Shown here piece after piece: positions 25,133 through 60,395 of a stretch of DNA of 64,000 bases. A model generated the notes under the pieces. It was not told the origin of the DNA. It searched no databases and was given only the letters and a program-made list of their open reading frames with translations. The DNA is from Empedobacter stercoris. GTDB lineage: Bacteria; Bacteroidota; Bacteroidia; Flavobacteriales; Weeksellaceae. Made by a program: the position numbers and the translations under genes. The stretch spans positions 1 to 64,000 of the forward strand of contig NZ_JACXZC010000006.1 of assembly GCF_020281205.1 (NCBI RefSeq), in the 5' to 3' direction. How positions within the stretch are numbered: the stretch's first letter is position 1; each line of letters begins with the position of its first letter.

Positions 25133-26575
25133 TTAATCTTCTCTTGAGCCGTCATCAGCCATTCGGACCATTTTTGGTGTAAATATCGCCACAACATCAA
25201 CTAAATCTTGTTGAGCAGCCATTACTTCGTGAATATCTTTGTATGCCATTGGGGCTTCGTCTTTTCCACCGCCAATTAATGTAATTCCAAAATCGTTTAA
25301 ATAATCATTTATCTTGTGTTGAGACAATGATTTTATCGCTTGTGTTCTGCTCATTTGTCGACCAGCTCCATGCGAAGCCGAATGAATCGAATTTTCTTCA
25401 CCTTTTCCTCGAACCAAAAATCCTGGCGCAGTCATCGAACCTGGAATAATTCCCATCACATCTTTAGCAGCTGGTGTAGCACCTTTTCGATGCACAATTA
25501 CTTCTTCATCATTGTGAATTTCTTTCCAAGCAAAATTATGATGATTTTCTACTTTCGCTAAAACTTCAGCACCAATTGATTTTGCGATTTTTTGATGAAT
25601 AATTTCGTGACAAGCCGAAGCATATTCACCCGCTAAATTCATCGAAATCCAGTATTCTTGACCTTCTGCAGAATCCAAATCCAAATAAGCTAAATTTTGT
25701 GCTTTATACGGAAGTTTACAAATTTCTTTAGCGATTTTAGTGTAATATCCAGCAATAGTAGCACCGAAGCCTCTCGATCCAGAATGTGTTAATAAAGCTA
25801 AATACGAATCTTTTTTGATGTTTAATTTCTCATCATCTTCTTTGAAATCGATCAAACCAAATTCTACAAAGTGGTTTCCACCACCAGAAGAACCTAATTG
25901 CGACCACGCTTTGTCTTTTAAATTCTGAATAAAAGTATTCGTTTCAAATTTTGTGTCATCCAAAACCTGATGTTCTGCTTTGTATTGACCATGAAATCCA
26001 TGGCCTGCACCAAATTTTGTGTTTTTTATCAACGTTTCTTTTAACGAATCGTGATGTTCAAAATAATGAGAAGCTGGTAAATCATAAATTGATAAAGCCA
26101 TTCTACAACCAATATCAACACCGACACCATAAGGAATAATCGCATTTTTTGTCGCTAAAACACCACCAATTGGTAAACCGTATCCTTGATGCGCATCTGG
26201 CATCAAAGCACCTGCAACAGTTACAGGTAATTTCATGGCCACTTTCATTTGTTCTAATGCACCATCTTCAATATTTTCTGCACCATAAATGTTGAAATCG
26301 TTAGGATTTTCTTTCAATTCAATTAAGTTTTCATCTTGTTTTGGCGAATGAATTCCATCAATAAAACCTTTTGCCAATGTTTTAAAAACTTTATCTTCTA
26401 AGAAATCTTGTGGCGAAGATAAAACTTGCACATATTTATCAAGCATTTCTGCTTTTGTGTAACCATTTCTTTTTTTGTTGATTTTTAAGGCGATTCCTAA
26501 TATTTCATTTTCAGGATAACCCAAGGCAATCAAATCATTTCCGTTAATTGGTTTATTATCTATTTTTTGTGACAT
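25133..26575 (-). CDS. rtcB: RNA-splicing/repair ligase RtcB
   Basis: 480 residues. The metal and guanylate site is intact: MPDAHQGYG (125-133), GVDIGCR with Asp154 and Cys157, GGGNHFVEFG with His235, HSGSRG with His264, HRKGATPA, and SASHGAGRQMSR with His402 as the predicted GMP-accepting residue. It joins RNA 2',3'-cyclic phosphate or 3'-phosphate ends to 5'-OH ends using GTP and Mn. It is 39 bases downstream of a slipin gene on the same strand. In bacteria RtcB usually serves RNA repair. No rtcA or archease is visible. Confidence 0.96.
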   Translation of the reverse strand: MSQKIDNKPINGNDLIALGYPENEILGIALKINKKRNGYTKAEMLDKYVQVLSSPQDFLEDKVFKTLAKGFIDGIHSPKQDENLIELKENPNDFNIYGAENIEDGALEQMKVAMKLPVTVAGALMPDAHQGYGLPIGGVLATKNAIIPYGVGVDIGCRMALSIYDLPASHYFEHHDSLKETLIKNTKFGAGHGFHGQYKAEHQVLDDTKFETNTFIQNLKDKAWSQLGSSGGGNHFVEFGLIDFKEDDEKLNIKKDSYLALLTHSGSRGFGATIAGYYTKIAKEICKLPYKAQNLAYLDLDSAEGQEYWISMNLAGEYASACHEIIHQKIAKSIGAEVLAKVENHHNFAWKEIHNDEEVIVHRKGATPAAKDVMGIIPGSMTAPGFLVRGKGEENSIHSASHGAGRQMSRTQAIKSLSQHKINDYLNDFGITLIGGGKDEAPMAYKDIHEVMAAQQDLVDVVAIFTPKMVRMADDGSRED

Positions 26576-26614: not shown

Positions 26615-27706
26615 CTATTTCGAGAACATAGTTTTTAATTCATTTAATACATTTGATCCACCAGAAATTGAGATTTCTCCAACTTTATCAGCTATTTTTT
26701 CAATGTATTCCATTTCTTTTAATTTCCATAAAGTTTCATTTTCTTCCATTAATTTTGCTGTGTTTAACAAGCTTCTTGTCGAAGCAGTTTCTTCACGGCG
26801 TGTAATCGAATTGGCTTGTGCTGTTTTTTCGGCAATCAAAACGCGGTTCATAATTTCTCTTATTTCTCCTGGAAGAATAATATCTTTCATCCCTGCGTTG
26901 ATTAATTTTAGACCAATTTTTTCAAATTGAGTTTCATATTTTTGAATAATATAATTCGTTACCGAATTTTTATCCGACATCAAATCATCAAAATTCATAT
27001 TGCCAATAAATTCTCTCAATCCCAATTGAATCGCTTGATAAATCATTTTCTCGAAATCCTTGTTCGATTGAAAAGCGTTTATCAAATCTGTGATTTGGTA
27101 GTCTACCATAAAATTGATTCGCAATTGTGCTTTATCTTTTGTCAAAATTTCTTGTCCAGAAATTTCAATTGTTTGCGGACGCATATCATAAGAAACCATC
27201 GAAATTTTGACTTCGTTGTTATAAAATTTATAATCGCCAGCTTTAAAAACCGAGTCAAATTCATTGTCTTTAAACAAAATTCCTTCATGATAAGTTGGAA
27301 TTGAAATAATACGAATCGCACCAGCTTTTCTTAAAATATCAATTTCTCTTTTTGTTAAATTCTTAATTTCGTCAGTAGAATTCAAATCAAATTTTACAGC
27401 TTTTAATTGAGTTGAATTTTTCCAAATCATCACATTTTTATTGTAAAACGAATCATAGATTTGATTGTTTTTGTAAATAATCAATACCTCATTATGCAAC
27501 ACTTCTATAAAATCTACCATTTCTTTCAATATTTCATTTTCCATAAACATTGCCTGGTATTTTTCATCAATTATTTCGTTGATGTTTAGTTTTTCGATGT
27601 TTTTATTGAAGAAAATCCAATAATTTCCTCTTGTGTAAATTTTTTCTACTTCTTTATTTTTGATATAGATTCCAATTTCTTGGTTGTTAATTGCTAATTT
27701 TTTCAT
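26615..27706 (-). CDS. Slipin/SPFH-domain protein of the rtcB operon
   Basis: 363 residues. The SPFH/band-7 region covers about 145-310 (GAIRIISIPTYHEGILFKD; QEILTKDKAQLRINFMVDYQI given in part; ILIAEKTAQANSITRREETA in the C-terminal helix, which reads RVLIAEK). There is no N-terminal membrane helix, unlike canonical slipins, so it may be soluble or peripherally bound. It precedes rtcB and is probably co-transcribed. SPFH partners of RtcB occur in other bacterial RNA-repair clusters. The role is inferred from context. Confidence 0.85.
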   Translation of the reverse strand: MKKLAINNQEIGIYIKNKEVEKIYTRGNYWIFFNKNIEKLNINEIIDEKYQAMFMENEILKEMVDFIEVLHNEVLIIYKNNQIYDSFYNKNVMIWKNSTQLKAVKFDLNSTDEIKNLTKREIDILRKAGAIRIISIPTYHEGILFKDNEFDSVFKAGDYKFYNNEVKISMVSYDMRPQTIEISGQEILTKDKAQLRINFMVDYQITDLINAFQSNKDFEKMIYQAIQLGLREFIGNMNFDDLMSDKNSVTNYIIQKYETQFEKIGLKLINAGMKDIILPGEIREIMNRVLIAEKTAQANSITRREETASTRSLLNTAKLMEENETLWKLKEMEYIEKIADKVGEISISGGSNVLNELKTMFSK

Positions 27707-27878: not shown

Positions 27879-28856
27879 CTATGACAAAACCAAGTTATTT
27901 TTATAAATATTTTGATTTTTAATTAGTGCATAAATCCGATGAATAATTTTATTTCTAACAGCATTTAAAACAGACATTTTATTTTTCCCTCCTTCTACCT
28001 TTCGATGATAATAAATAGCCAAGTCATTGTCTAAACGAATAGCACTCATTGCAGCTAAATGCAATAGTTTCTTCAAATCTTTATCAGCCATTGATGAAAC
28101 TTTCGGTTTTCGCCTTATGGAAGTTCCAGATTGAAAATCAAATGGAGCTATTCCAGCATAGCAAGCCATTTGTCTTGGCGTATTTATGGTTGTAAAACCA
28201 TCCGTTTTAATCAACATATTAAATGCTAAAACTTTTCCTACACCAGGAATTGATTGTATTCTTTTATAATGGTTATAAAGCTGTTCATCATTACAAATTA
28301 ATTGATAGATTCTATCTTCGATCTCATTAATTTGTTTAGTTAATACATCGATTAGCTTAGTGTTTAAACGTAAAACAGCTTTGTCAACAATTGATTTTAA
28401 AAATAATTCATCTTTTGCTTGAGCTAGTAATCCAGCTCTTATTTTAACGCGATGTTTTCTTTCAGCATTCAATAATTTAATTTTTTCAATCACTTGAGAA
28501 TTAGGTTTCCACTCTTGAAGATCCATATGGTTTTTCAGTAAAAATACAGCAATGCGTTCACTGTCAATTTTATCATTTTTACCTCTAACGAGCCCCATAC
28601 TTTTTTTCAAATGCAAAGGATTAATCACATAAACAGTAAAAGAATAGTTGACTAAAACGCTGTAAAGAATAGCGTTAAATCGACCTGTATTCTCCATTCC
28701 AATCAGAATTTCTTGTTTTTTATCAAACTGTTTGAAAAAATCTTTTATTGCTTTTTCAGTATTAGAAATGTTCTCAAAACGATTCTCTTTATTTACTTGA
28801 ATACAGATGTCTAAAGTTAATTTACTCACATCAATTCCGATAACAATTTTTTCCAT
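27879..28856 (-). CDS. IS110-family transposase (DEDD/RuvC-like)
   Basis: 325 residues. The N-terminal DEDD domain starts IVIGIDVSKLTLDICIQ and includes IGMENTGRFN and KNDKIDSERIA. The C-terminal Transposase_20 domain has SIPGVGKVLAFNMLIKT, MACYAGIAPFDFQSGTS and LKKLLHLAAMSAIR, where the conserved Ser lies. The enzyme recombines DNA guided by a bridge RNA in well-studied relatives. The ORF looks complete, so the element may be active. Confidence 0.95.
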   Translation of the reverse strand: MEKIVIGIDVSKLTLDICIQVNKENRFENISNTEKAIKDFFKQFDKKQEILIGMENTGRFNAILYSVLVNYSFTVYVINPLHLKKSMGLVRGKNDKIDSERIAVFLLKNHMDLQEWKPNSQVIEKIKLLNAERKHRVKIRAGLLAQAKDELFLKSIVDKAVLRLNTKLIDVLTKQINEIEDRIYQLICNDEQLYNHYKRIQSIPGVGKVLAFNMLIKTDGFTTINTPRQMACYAGIAPFDFQSGTSIRRKPKVSSMADKDLKKLLHLAAMSAIRLDNDLAIYYHRKVEGGKNKMSVLNAVRNKIIHRIYALIKNQNIYKNNLVLS

Positions 28857-29040: not shown

Positions 29041-29349
29041 ATTTAAGATTTTCAAATCTAAAGGAGCTTATCGAAGAATCTGGTCTTTTTTACTAATTAA
29101 AAAAGCTAAATCATTTTCCTTTTTTAAAACGGAATTTGAAGTTTGAGCAGCTTGTTTTGATGTCTTATTTTTAAACTTGTTTCAAATCATTTTGACTTGA
29201 TGTTTTGTTTAAAAACTTTAAAATCAATCATCAACTAAAGTTTCAAATTCAGGTTTTAAGCAAGTTTTTGATCTTATTTCAAATTCATTTCTACGAAATA
29301 AATTCTCTATTCGAAAAGAAAACTTTTTAGCTTTTTTGTTTTCAATGTT

Positions 29350-29570
29350 GCCCTTTCGGGCGATGAACAGATTTAAAGTCTGTATGAATTGCTCTACCCA
29401 CTGAGCTATTTCAGTTTCCTGAAAGTAGGATTCGAACCTACGACCCATCCACTGGAGATTTTAATTATTCAGAATAGAAGTGATGAAACATTTTCTACTA
29501 CAATGCTATACTGAAACATTTGTCAAGGAACAATTAAAATCATTTGGTTGTTAAACCTTTGACAAAGTTG
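29350..29570 (-). ncRNA. Structured RNA with circularly permuted tRNA-like module (bacterial Y RNA-like)
   Basis: Minus-strand order 5' to 3': hairpin I (29519-29566, arms CCTTTGACAAA/TTTGTCAAGG written in plus sense); hairpin II (29468-29515); then the module. Its parts are a variable loop GGGTC (29442-29446), T-arm GTAGG-TTCGAAT-CCTAC (29425-29441), an acceptor-like stem TTTCAG closed by GAAA to CTGAAA (29409-29424), TA, and D-arm GCTC-AGTGGGTA-GAGC (29391-29406). An anticodon-like stem is formed by the two flanks (ATTCAT with GTGGAT). A GCCC-GAAA-GGGC hairpin (29350-29361) follows. The acceptor is sealed, so it cannot be aminoacylated. This matches the tRNA mimicry of YrlA-type Y RNAs. The ends are estimates. 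Confidence 0.72.
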
Positions 29571-29579
29571 GAGTAGAAG

Positions 29580-29750: not shown

Positions 29751-30770
29751 ATGGCAACTAATAAAATTGCATTAATACGCTACCAAACGATTGATAAATG
29801 TTTGCAAAATCATTATAGAAAGTGGACTTTAGATGATTTGATTGAAAAAGTTTCGGAAGCTTTATACGAATATGAAGGAATAACGTCTGGAGTTTCGAAA
29901 CGAACGATACAAGGTGACTTACAAGTGATGCGTAGTGATAAATTGGGCTATAACGCGCCAATTGTTGTTAGAGAAAAAAAGTTTTATGAATATGAAGATC
30001 GAGAGTATTCGATTCATAATTCACCAGTTTCGTCTGCAGATTTGGATAAAATGAAAGAAGTGATTTCGGTGATGAAACAATTGAATGGTTTTAATTATTT
30101 TGATGATATGAATGAGATTATTACGCGTCTCGAAAATAATTTATCCAAGCAAACTCATCAACAACCAAATTATATTCAGTTCGAAGAAAATCCTTTATTA
30201 AAAGGTTTAGAACATTTGAATCGGTTGTATCAAGCAATTGTCAAGAAACAACCTTTGTTGATTTCGTATCAATCGTTCAAAGCAAAAATTCAAGAACCAA
30301 AACAACAAGTTTATTATCCGTATTTGTTAAAAGAATATCGCAATCGTTGGTTTTTATTGGCTAAATCGAGAAAAGACATGAAGTTGTATACTTTGGCTTT
30401 GGATAGGATTGTTGAGTTTTATGAATTGGCCAATGAGCCGTTTATTGATGAGTTAGAAATTGATTTTGATACGTATTATAATAATGTGATTGGTGTGACA
30501 AAAAACGTGAAAGAAAGGGAGCAACGAGTTATTTTTCGGGTTAATAAAAAATTGGCGCCTTATGTCGTGACAAAACCTATTCATGCATCGCAAAAAACAT
30601 TGGAGATTACAGATGAAGGAACGTTGTTTTCGATAGAAGTGGTGCATAATTTTGAGTTAGAACGAGAAATTTTAGGCTTTGGTGAAGAAATTGAAATTCT
30701 TGCTCCGAGATTAGTAAAAAAGAGAATTAAAACTCGATTAGATAAAGCGTATAATCAATACAAAAAATAA
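29751..30770 (+). CDS. WYL-domain transcriptional regulator
   Basis: 339 residues. The N-terminus is a winged-HTH (YQTIDKCLQNHYRKWTLDDL; SGVSKRTIQGDLQVM). The middle WYL domain includes LEHLNRLYQAIVKKQPLLIS, VYYPYLLKEYRNRWFLLAKS and LALDRI, followed by a C-terminal WCX-like part ending RLDKAYNQYKK. WYL proteins often sense nucleic acids or nucleotides. It is divergent from the ncRNA-slipin-rtcB direction and flanked by the paired palindromes, so it probably controls the repair locus. Confidence 0.88.
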   Translation: MATNKIALIRYQTIDKCLQNHYRKWTLDDLIEKVSEALYEYEGITSGVSKRTIQGDLQVMRSDKLGYNAPIVVREKKFYEYEDREYSIHNSPVSSADLDKMKEVISVMKQLNGFNYFDDMNEIITRLENNLSKQTHQQPNYIQFEENPLLKGLEHLNRLYQAIVKKQPLLISYQSFKAKIQEPKQQVYYPYLLKEYRNRWFLLAKSRKDMKLYTLALDRIVEFYELANEPFIDELEIDFDTYYNNVIGVTKNVKEREQRVIFRVNKKLAPYVVTKPIHASQKTLEITDEGTLFSIEVVHNFELEREILGFGEEIEILAPRLVKKRIKTRLDKAYNQYKK

Positions 30771-60131: not shown

Positions 60132-60310
60132 ATTAAAGAAGTTTCAAGAATAATTATTGACATCTGATTGATAATCATTGTTAATTTTTAATGAAAATAT
60201 TTAACAAATAAATTAAACAAAATATTGTTGATTTAGATTTGATTTTACTAATTAAAATGTTTAATTTTGCAATTCACTTTTAAAGGTGATTTAGTTTTTA
60301 AAGTTTACAA

Positions 60311-60388
60311 CATTTGTATAGCTCATAATAAGGTTGAGCGTCTCTACGGCAGACCATAAATACTTGCCACTACAAATGAATTTTTTTT
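60311..60388 (+). promoter_or_regulatory. Purine (guanine-type) riboswitch upstream of purL
   Basis: P1 CATTTG/CAAATG (60311-60316, 60373-60378); J1/2 TATA; P2 GCTCA/TGAGC with L2 TAATAAGGT; J2/3 GTCTCTAC (60340-60347); P3 GGCAG/TTGCC with L3 containing CCATAAA; J3/1 ACTA (60369-60372). L2 GG and L3 CC allow the kissing loops. The C in ACTA is the position that selects guanine. J1/2 is two bases shorter than usual. P1 is followed at 60381-60388 by eight T, so P1 itself may end transcription. 60132-60310 shows nothing else. Confidence 0.8.
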
Positions 60389-60395
60389 CTATAAA

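Follow-up and report, generated by a model that had tools for sequence, protein, structure and literature searches.

The window considered here, the first 64,000 nucleotides (nt) of contig NZ_JACXZC010000006.1 of Empedobacter stercoris (NCBI RefSeq assembly GCF_020281205.1), carries on its minus strand a small tRNA-like module, followed in the same direction by an IS110-family transposase, a slipin-like SPFH/Band_7 protein, and the RNA ligase RtcB, with a WYL/WCX protein, the probable regulator of the operon, encoded divergently (Table 1). RtcB belongs to the same gene run as the module, in keeping with an RtcB RNA-repair operon. The module has the shape of a tRNA encoded in circularly permuted order: read 5′ to 3′, it consists of one strand of a flank stem, variable loop, T arm, sealed acceptor, a UA linker, D arm, A26, and the other strand of the flank stem, with tRNA-like spacings (a 5-nt variable loop, two bases at positions 8–9, and a single base at 26). 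The acceptor-like stem, sealed here by a GNRA loop, reaches up to 7 base pairs (bp) in relatives, where alternative loops such as UUCG, UGAG, and CAAAA occur. Because the sealed acceptor leaves no free 3′ end, the anatomy of the RNA suggests that it could not be charged.

Covariation and identity of the module

The strand order, the canonical T and D arms, the GNRA-sealed acceptor, and the pairing of the two flanks as an anticodon-like stem had been proposed in an initial annotation made from the letters alone, which called for an alignment of homologues in which the acceptor, T, and D stems could be examined for compensatory changes. A search by DNA similarity of 14 congeneric genomes recovered a homologue of the module in 13 of them. 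In a sequence-only alignment of 14 hand-cut modules (two genomes contribute two, and G121, whose D arm differs, is omitted), 98.5% of pair cells form standard pairs and 13 of 19 pairs show two-sided changes, which occupy 34 cells as opposed to 8.3 in shuffled alignments, none of 500 shuffles being equally good. Pairing falls to 32–49% when partners are slid by 1–3 columns, and RNAalifold, unaided, yields the same structure. In the most distant congener, G061, the D, T, acceptor, and flank stems are all altered and still pair. Because the changed stems still pair and the covariation exceeds that in shuffles, the permuted tRNA-like fold is well supported, and each of the four structural proposals of the initial annotation is borne out by compensatory changes. 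In Empedobacter brevis G121 (L060, L153), the altered D arm is followed by an anticodon-arm-like CUAGA-AUUCGGC-UCUAG hairpin.

The closest known comparison is YrlA, an RNA described as an Rsr-holding stem joined to a domain that looks like the D, T, and acceptor arms of tRNA, is modified by DusA and TruB, and docks on PNPase (PMC8394870). The YrlA covariance model (Rfam RF02553) aligns across its full length, positions 1–114, with an E-value of 6.9e-8 in 601 bases, and is the only significant Rfam family between 29200 and 29800, so that no match to an unrelated family was found in that interval. The permuted tRNA-like effector domain of the YrlA class (T arm, acceptor-like hairpin, and D arm) is thus present, as the initial annotation had suggested, but the score of 41.8 bits stays below the Rfam gathering cut-off of 69. 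A search of the strain’s own genome found no Ro60 gene (TROVE, PF05731), and the Ro-side stem motif GYGYYGU...UACUUCG, seen in 19 of 21 Bacteroidota TROVE/Ro60 loci, occurs in none of 121 slipin-linked regions. Because the genome has no TROVE gene and the Ro-side motif is missing, identity with YrlA or another Ro60 Y RNA is rejected. What the two RNAs share is the permuted domain with its T arm, sealed acceptor-like stem, and D arm, together with an rtcB operon context, whereas YrlA has Ro60/Rsr as partner and carries the Ro stem, and the window RNA has slipin as its partner; many relatives of the window RNA further differ from YrlA in adding complete anticodon arms and tandem modules.

Nor is the module an ordinary tRNA. 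The Rfam tRNA model (RF00005) scores 16 bits against a cut-off of 29, the module has no normal-order cloverleaf with a free 3′ end, and neither this model nor ARAGORN places an ordinary tRNA over it; the sole ARAGORN call here, a ‘tRNA-Pyl’, is spurious.

Table 1. Coordinates of the RNA and neighbouring genes in the window (R1, covariance model built here from the module, with rough E-values)
Feature	Position	Strand	Evidence or remark
Circularly permuted tRNA-like module	29384..29452	(-)	R1, 92.5 bits; R1 includes the window sequence
YrlA covariance-model match	29472-29360	(-)	41.8 bits
Anticodon-type flank stem, 5′ strand UGGAU	29451-29447	(-)	Pairs with 29389-29385; 4/5 pairs covary
Variable loop GGGUC	29446-29442	(-)	
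T arm GUAGG-UUCGAAU-CCUAC	29441-29425	(-)	14 homologues: 100% of cells paired; two-sided changes in 3/5 pairs
Acceptor-like stem overall, without free 3′ end	29409..29424	(-)	98.6% paired; compensatory changes
Acceptor 3′ strand UUUCAG	29424-29419	(-)	
Acceptor-closing loop GAAA (GNRA)	29418-29415	(-)	
Acceptor 5′ strand CUGAAA	29414-29409	(-)	
UA linker	29408-29407	(-)	
D arm GCUC-AGUGGGUA-GAGC	29406-29391	(-)	100% paired; two-sided changes in 3/4 pairs, including UAUC/GAUA in G061
A26	29390	(-)	
Anticodon-type flank stem, 3′ strand AUUCA	29389-29385	(-)	Covariation; 5-bp stem
Anticodon-arm-like hairpin ACAGA-CUUUAAA-UCUGU, directly 3′ of module	29383-29367	(-)	Identical or covarying hairpin in relatives
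GCCC-GAAA-GGGC hairpin	29350..29361	(-)	Retained across most of the genus
Conserved leader 5′ of module	29453..29577	(-)	13-genome alignment
Conserved ~240-nt region between RNA and slipin	29099..29337	(-)	U run at end
IS110-family transposase, between RNA and slipin in this strain	27879..28856	(-)	Pfam
Slipin-like SPFH/Band_7 protein	26615..27706	(-)	Pfam PF01145, 5.4e-22
RtcB RNA ligase	25133..26575	(-)	Pfam PF01139, 3.8e-84
WYL/WCX transcriptional regulator, divergent	29751..30770	(+)	Pfam PF13280, PF25583; position same in congeners

Anticodon arms, partner proteins, and tRNA arrays in relatives

R1 was used to scan 345 Bacteroidota genomes, and the best matches were examined. Some of the high matches are junctions between tandem tRNAs; the real modules among them adjoin either a slipin orthologue or TROVE/Ro60, and one genome of the same order (G252) has a slipin-linked and a Ro60-linked module at separate loci. 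In a public genome collection, an R1 match lies on the same strand and ~0.3–0.9 kb upstream of slipin in 77 of the 78 named Bacteroidota loci with enough upstream sequence, two further loci being situated at contig ends; these counts are not independent events because closely related species recur. Locus L168 has a degenerate T arm only. The module is likewise found at the Weeksellaceae slipin loci searched, and the sole congener without slipin, G021, has no copy of the RNA either. The slipin-like SPFH protein is therefore the constant partner of the RNA. No slipin was found in viral contigs and phage records. A reduced module, comprising a T arm, a sealed acceptor, and a weak D arm (L230, 4380-4570; L234, 4300-4500), precedes slipin and RlaP-like genes in Citrobacter and in about 30% of Escherichia coli genomes, a similar slipin locus being present at a query coverage of at least 80% in 1621 of 5426 E. 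coli genomes. In Citrobacter the order is RtcR, a sequence resembling a sigma-54 promoter, the reduced module, slipin, and a nucleotidyltransferase. At a Photobacterium locus (L232, 4665-4806), slipin is preceded by two tRNA-like units, both in normal order, and U33 is missing from the anticodon loop of one of them.

Many relatives possess a second module, in which a complete anticodon arm begins exactly 1 nt after the D arm. A hairpin with a 5-bp stem and a 7-nt loop occurs at that offset in 47 of 185 distinct modules, compared with 1.45 expected (maximum 6 in 1000 shuffles), as counted by a script with hand-set score limits among modules pre-selected for recognisable T and D arms; few hairpins occur at other offsets or with other loop sizes. 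The closed arms have the signature of anticodon loops, with U33 in 46, Y32 in all, and a purine at position 37 in 44 of the 47. In an alignment of 29 modules, 99.3% of the cells of the anticodon arm are paired and all five pairs show two-sided changes. Judged by their sequences, the armed second modules are complete tRNA folds whose acceptor is sealed and whose ends part at the variable loop. Among 26 modules with a shared, nearly invariant CUACR/YGUAG stem there are 11 different anticodons (UUU, ACG, UUG, AGG, AUA, UCA, AAG, GUC, CAU, CAG, and UCG), the entropy being 1.6–1.8 bits at positions 34–36, 0.24 bits at position 33, and almost none in the stem. A further anticodon-like hairpin often follows the second module; at Myroides-type loci, it has the stem AUUGC/GCAAU and the loop CUUUUAA, CUCAAAA, CUUAAAA, or CUGUCAC. 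Among the Ro60-linked modules parsed, a closed hairpin was seen 1 nt after the D arm once (L136), and its loop lacks U33.

The acceptor loops of the relatives are mostly 3–7 nt long, GNRA being the commonest, and are without a discriminator or CCA. At four loci (L207, L212, L215, and L227), the last module keeps a 7-bp acceptor, and in three of the four an ACCA junction is combined with a CAU anticodon; this module looks like a recent permuted copy of tRNA-Met. In Aquimarina and Dokdonia, a late module combines an ACCA acceptor junction with a CAU anticodon arm. The ACCA/CAU modules look like a tandem tRNA duplication minus its outer halves, the model proposed for the origin of permuted tRNAs (PMC3978253).

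In 24 of 80 loci (including L155, L165, L171, L173, L174, L187, L193, L207, and L227), the mimic and slipin are preceded by 3–18 tRNA genes on the same strand; none lie downstream. Their composition is selective: among 137 array tRNAs there is no Gly or Thr and one each of Ala and Val, and Leu(UAG), His, Asp, Pro(UGG), Phe, Asn, Arg, Tyr, and Gln dominate. RtcB, RlaP, RNA ligases, or such arrays are often found near the module–slipin loci, and the neighbours sampled comprise, among others, ligases of the Rnl2 and RLIG1 types as well as a metallophosphatase and RNase H-like proteins. The predicted role of RlaP is to put back nucleotides that are lost following cleavage of the RloC type (PMC7824862).

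The remainder of the locus and the slipin-like protein

The leader that precedes the module probably comprises a promoter or operator plus the 5′ part of the RNA. In the anticodon-arm-like hairpin directly 3′ of the module, Y32 and U33 are mostly retained across relatives, and several congeners have the loop CUUUUAA. The conserved ~240-nt region beyond it is closed by a long-range helix between AAAAAAGCUAAA (29337-29326) and UUUAGCUUUUUU (29110-29099), which is retained despite changes among congeners, for example AAAGCUGAAA/UUUCAGCUUU in G083 and G044 in an alignment judged by eye. The possibility that these 240 nt hold a small conserved open reading frame was rejected, since the frame is not kept, again by eye, in G073, G083, G044, and G099; the region is treated as RNA for this reason, and is a possible 3′ domain, terminator, or attenuator.

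The IS110 element does not separate the RNA from slipin in congeners with an unbroken locus, and its insertion in this strain may uncouple slipin–rtcB from the operon promoter; G104 (L066) also has an IS110 fragment, at the point where its contig breaks off. Most congeners encode two RlaP nucleotidyltransferases between slipin and RtcB. Apart from generic WYL matches and a weak match of a Cas3c model to the WYL protein, PADLOC reported no defence system. Elsewhere in the window, a purine riboswitch is predicted at 60294-60392 (+) with 53.4 bits.

Comparisons of the predicted slipin structure fit stomatin, HflK/C, and the vault protein, the fold itself being SPFH/stomatin. The full-length model contains three five-strand repeats, the last inside the SPFH domain, and aligns with the major vault protein over residues 2–286 (186 aligned, 3.5 Å, Z 11.3). 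The N-terminal 130 residues alone yield weak matches (best Foldseek E-value 0.14, Z ≤2.8), and sequence profiles retrieve stomatin, not the vault protein. Since TEP1 of the vault carries a TROVE domain, the pairing is suggestive, and the modelled kinship of slipin with the vault protein is unproven.

Possible roles in tRNA damage and repair

We propose, at about even chances, that the RNA is an unchargeable tRNA decoy, bait, or sensor within a Ro60-independent tRNA-damage/RNA-repair operon. Transcribed as a small structured RNA or as the leader RNA of that operon, it would work without Ro60. Because the tRNA fold is encoded in circularly permuted order, the ends of the RNA would exit at the anticodon stem, or at the variable loop in the second module of many relatives, while the acceptor end is shut by a short, often GNRA, loop, leaving no 3′ end for charging. 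Such an RNA could pass for tRNA with enzymes that recognise the elbow formed by the T and D loops; in relatives, those that read the anticodon arm could be deceived as well. Its targets would be tRNA-damaging enzymes, above all anticodon nucleases, which it would bind; the slipin-like protein, as a putative RNA-binding partner, would scaffold the ribonucleoprotein, and RtcB, RlaP, and other ligases would mend what is cut. Taken together, the unvarying scaffold with its variable anticodons, the selective tRNA arrays, and the enzymes of RNA repair suggest that selection is exerted by anticodon nucleases.

The nearest precedent is the rsr-yrlBA-rtcBA operon of Salmonella, in which a tRNA-mimic RNA also accompanies RtcB, and which is induced by damaged tRNAs; it differs in having RtcR and Rsr where the window locus has WYL and slipin and its relatives have RlaP or ATP-type ligases (PMC7790460). 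The authors of that study proposed that YrlA might competitively inhibit an anticodon nuclease (PMC7790460). Several observations weigh against a decoy or bait. YrlA fragments were undetected in Salmonella when tRNAs were cut, contrary to what a cleaved bait would predict there (PMC7790460). The window copy has a single module with no closed anticodon arm on its D arm, and the loop of its anticodon-like hairpin is CUUUAAA, the corresponding loop of sister strain G113 having 6 nt. A cis-acting leader would account just as well for the fixed position upstream of slipin.

Such a leader is the strongest of the alternatives, although still an unlikely one. The mimic would then be the 5′ part of the slipin–RtcB mRNA, sensing enzymes that cut or modify tRNA and switching readthrough accordingly, a reading that its invariable placement on the same strand, 0.3–0.9 kb before slipin, and the conserved long-range helix with its terminal U run would suit; the relatives at Ro60 loci, however, are not slipin leaders, lying mostly 3′ of the Ro60 gene, and two or three tandem modules with anticodon arms exceed the needs of a simple switch. 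Distinctly improbable is a scaffold of the Y RNA type, in which the domain would dock on PNPase or another nuclease, as in RYPER, and slipin would replace Ro60 as the ring partner. The permuted domain is the same as that of YrlA, the module neighbours slipin at some loci and Ro60 at others, SPFH proteins make rings or cages, and the slipin model resembles stomatin, HflK/C, and the vault protein, but the Ro-side stem motif is lost (0/121), the hypervariable anticodon arms would go unexplained, and RNA binding by slipin is putative.

Permuted tRNA genes of some algae and archaea also place the 3′ half before the 5′ half, and a tandem-duplication origin is plausible for both (PMC3978253). By analogy, RtcB might join the ends of the RNA, with RNase P and RNase Z cutting the acceptor loop open to give a working tRNA. 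The presence of RtcB in the operon and the ACCA/CAU modules of Aquimarina and Dokdonia would accord with such a pre-tRNA, which is nonetheless very improbable: unlike those genes, the junction is here a short sealed hairpin and the fold opens at the anticodon stem or variable loop, the short CCA-less acceptor loops argue against maturation, the window copy has no anticodon loop at its junction, the anticodons include unusual ones (UCA and AUA, for example), and the genome already holds 68 ordinary tRNA matches. Scarcely credible, and rejected as a present-day account since both compensatory changes and positional conservation are found, is a chance resemblance to a permuted tRNA at the junction of a tandem tRNA pair that has decayed. 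Below its cut-off the YrlA model does match junctions of ordinary tandem tRNAs, and it fires in 13 of 14 control genomes, so that RF02553 searches under the threshold can mislead; but the module has no flanking tRNA halves, covaries strongly across 13 genomes, and keeps its place before slipin; tandem duplication may still be the origin of the element.

A partial parallel to the locus is offered by the TrcR regulon of Anabaena, which places a tRNA array (the trn operon), rtcB, and slipin under one regulator, although its genes are scattered and the accessible part of that report mentions no tRNA-mimic RNA (PMC10272220). In the accessible literature on slipin with RtcB or RtcR, on decoy tRNAs, and on permuted tRNAs, no description of the element was found; slipin itself may have been mentioned in such operons before. 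The accounts available of tRNA-mimic Y RNAs pair them with Ro60, whereas across Bacteroidota this permuted domain is found with another protein partner, and anticodon arms like those of the relatives go unmentioned where YrlA is described. That the element is no YrlA or Ro60 Y RNA, and that its family has full anticodon arms and slipin as its partner, lay outside what the initial annotation could see.

More tentatively, and with somewhat less than even confidence, we suggest a widespread Ro60-independent repair system in which chains of sealed, permuted mimics, their anticodons exchanged rapidly while the scaffold stays constant, serve as decoys or tripwires matched to the anticodon nucleases of each lineage, with spare tRNA arrays alongside. 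The loci would allow the role of tRNA mimics in RNA-repair operons, unsettled in the case of YrlA, to be tested directly, and a variable-anticodon decoy, if true, would represent a novel type of response to tRNA-cutting toxins and defence nucleases.
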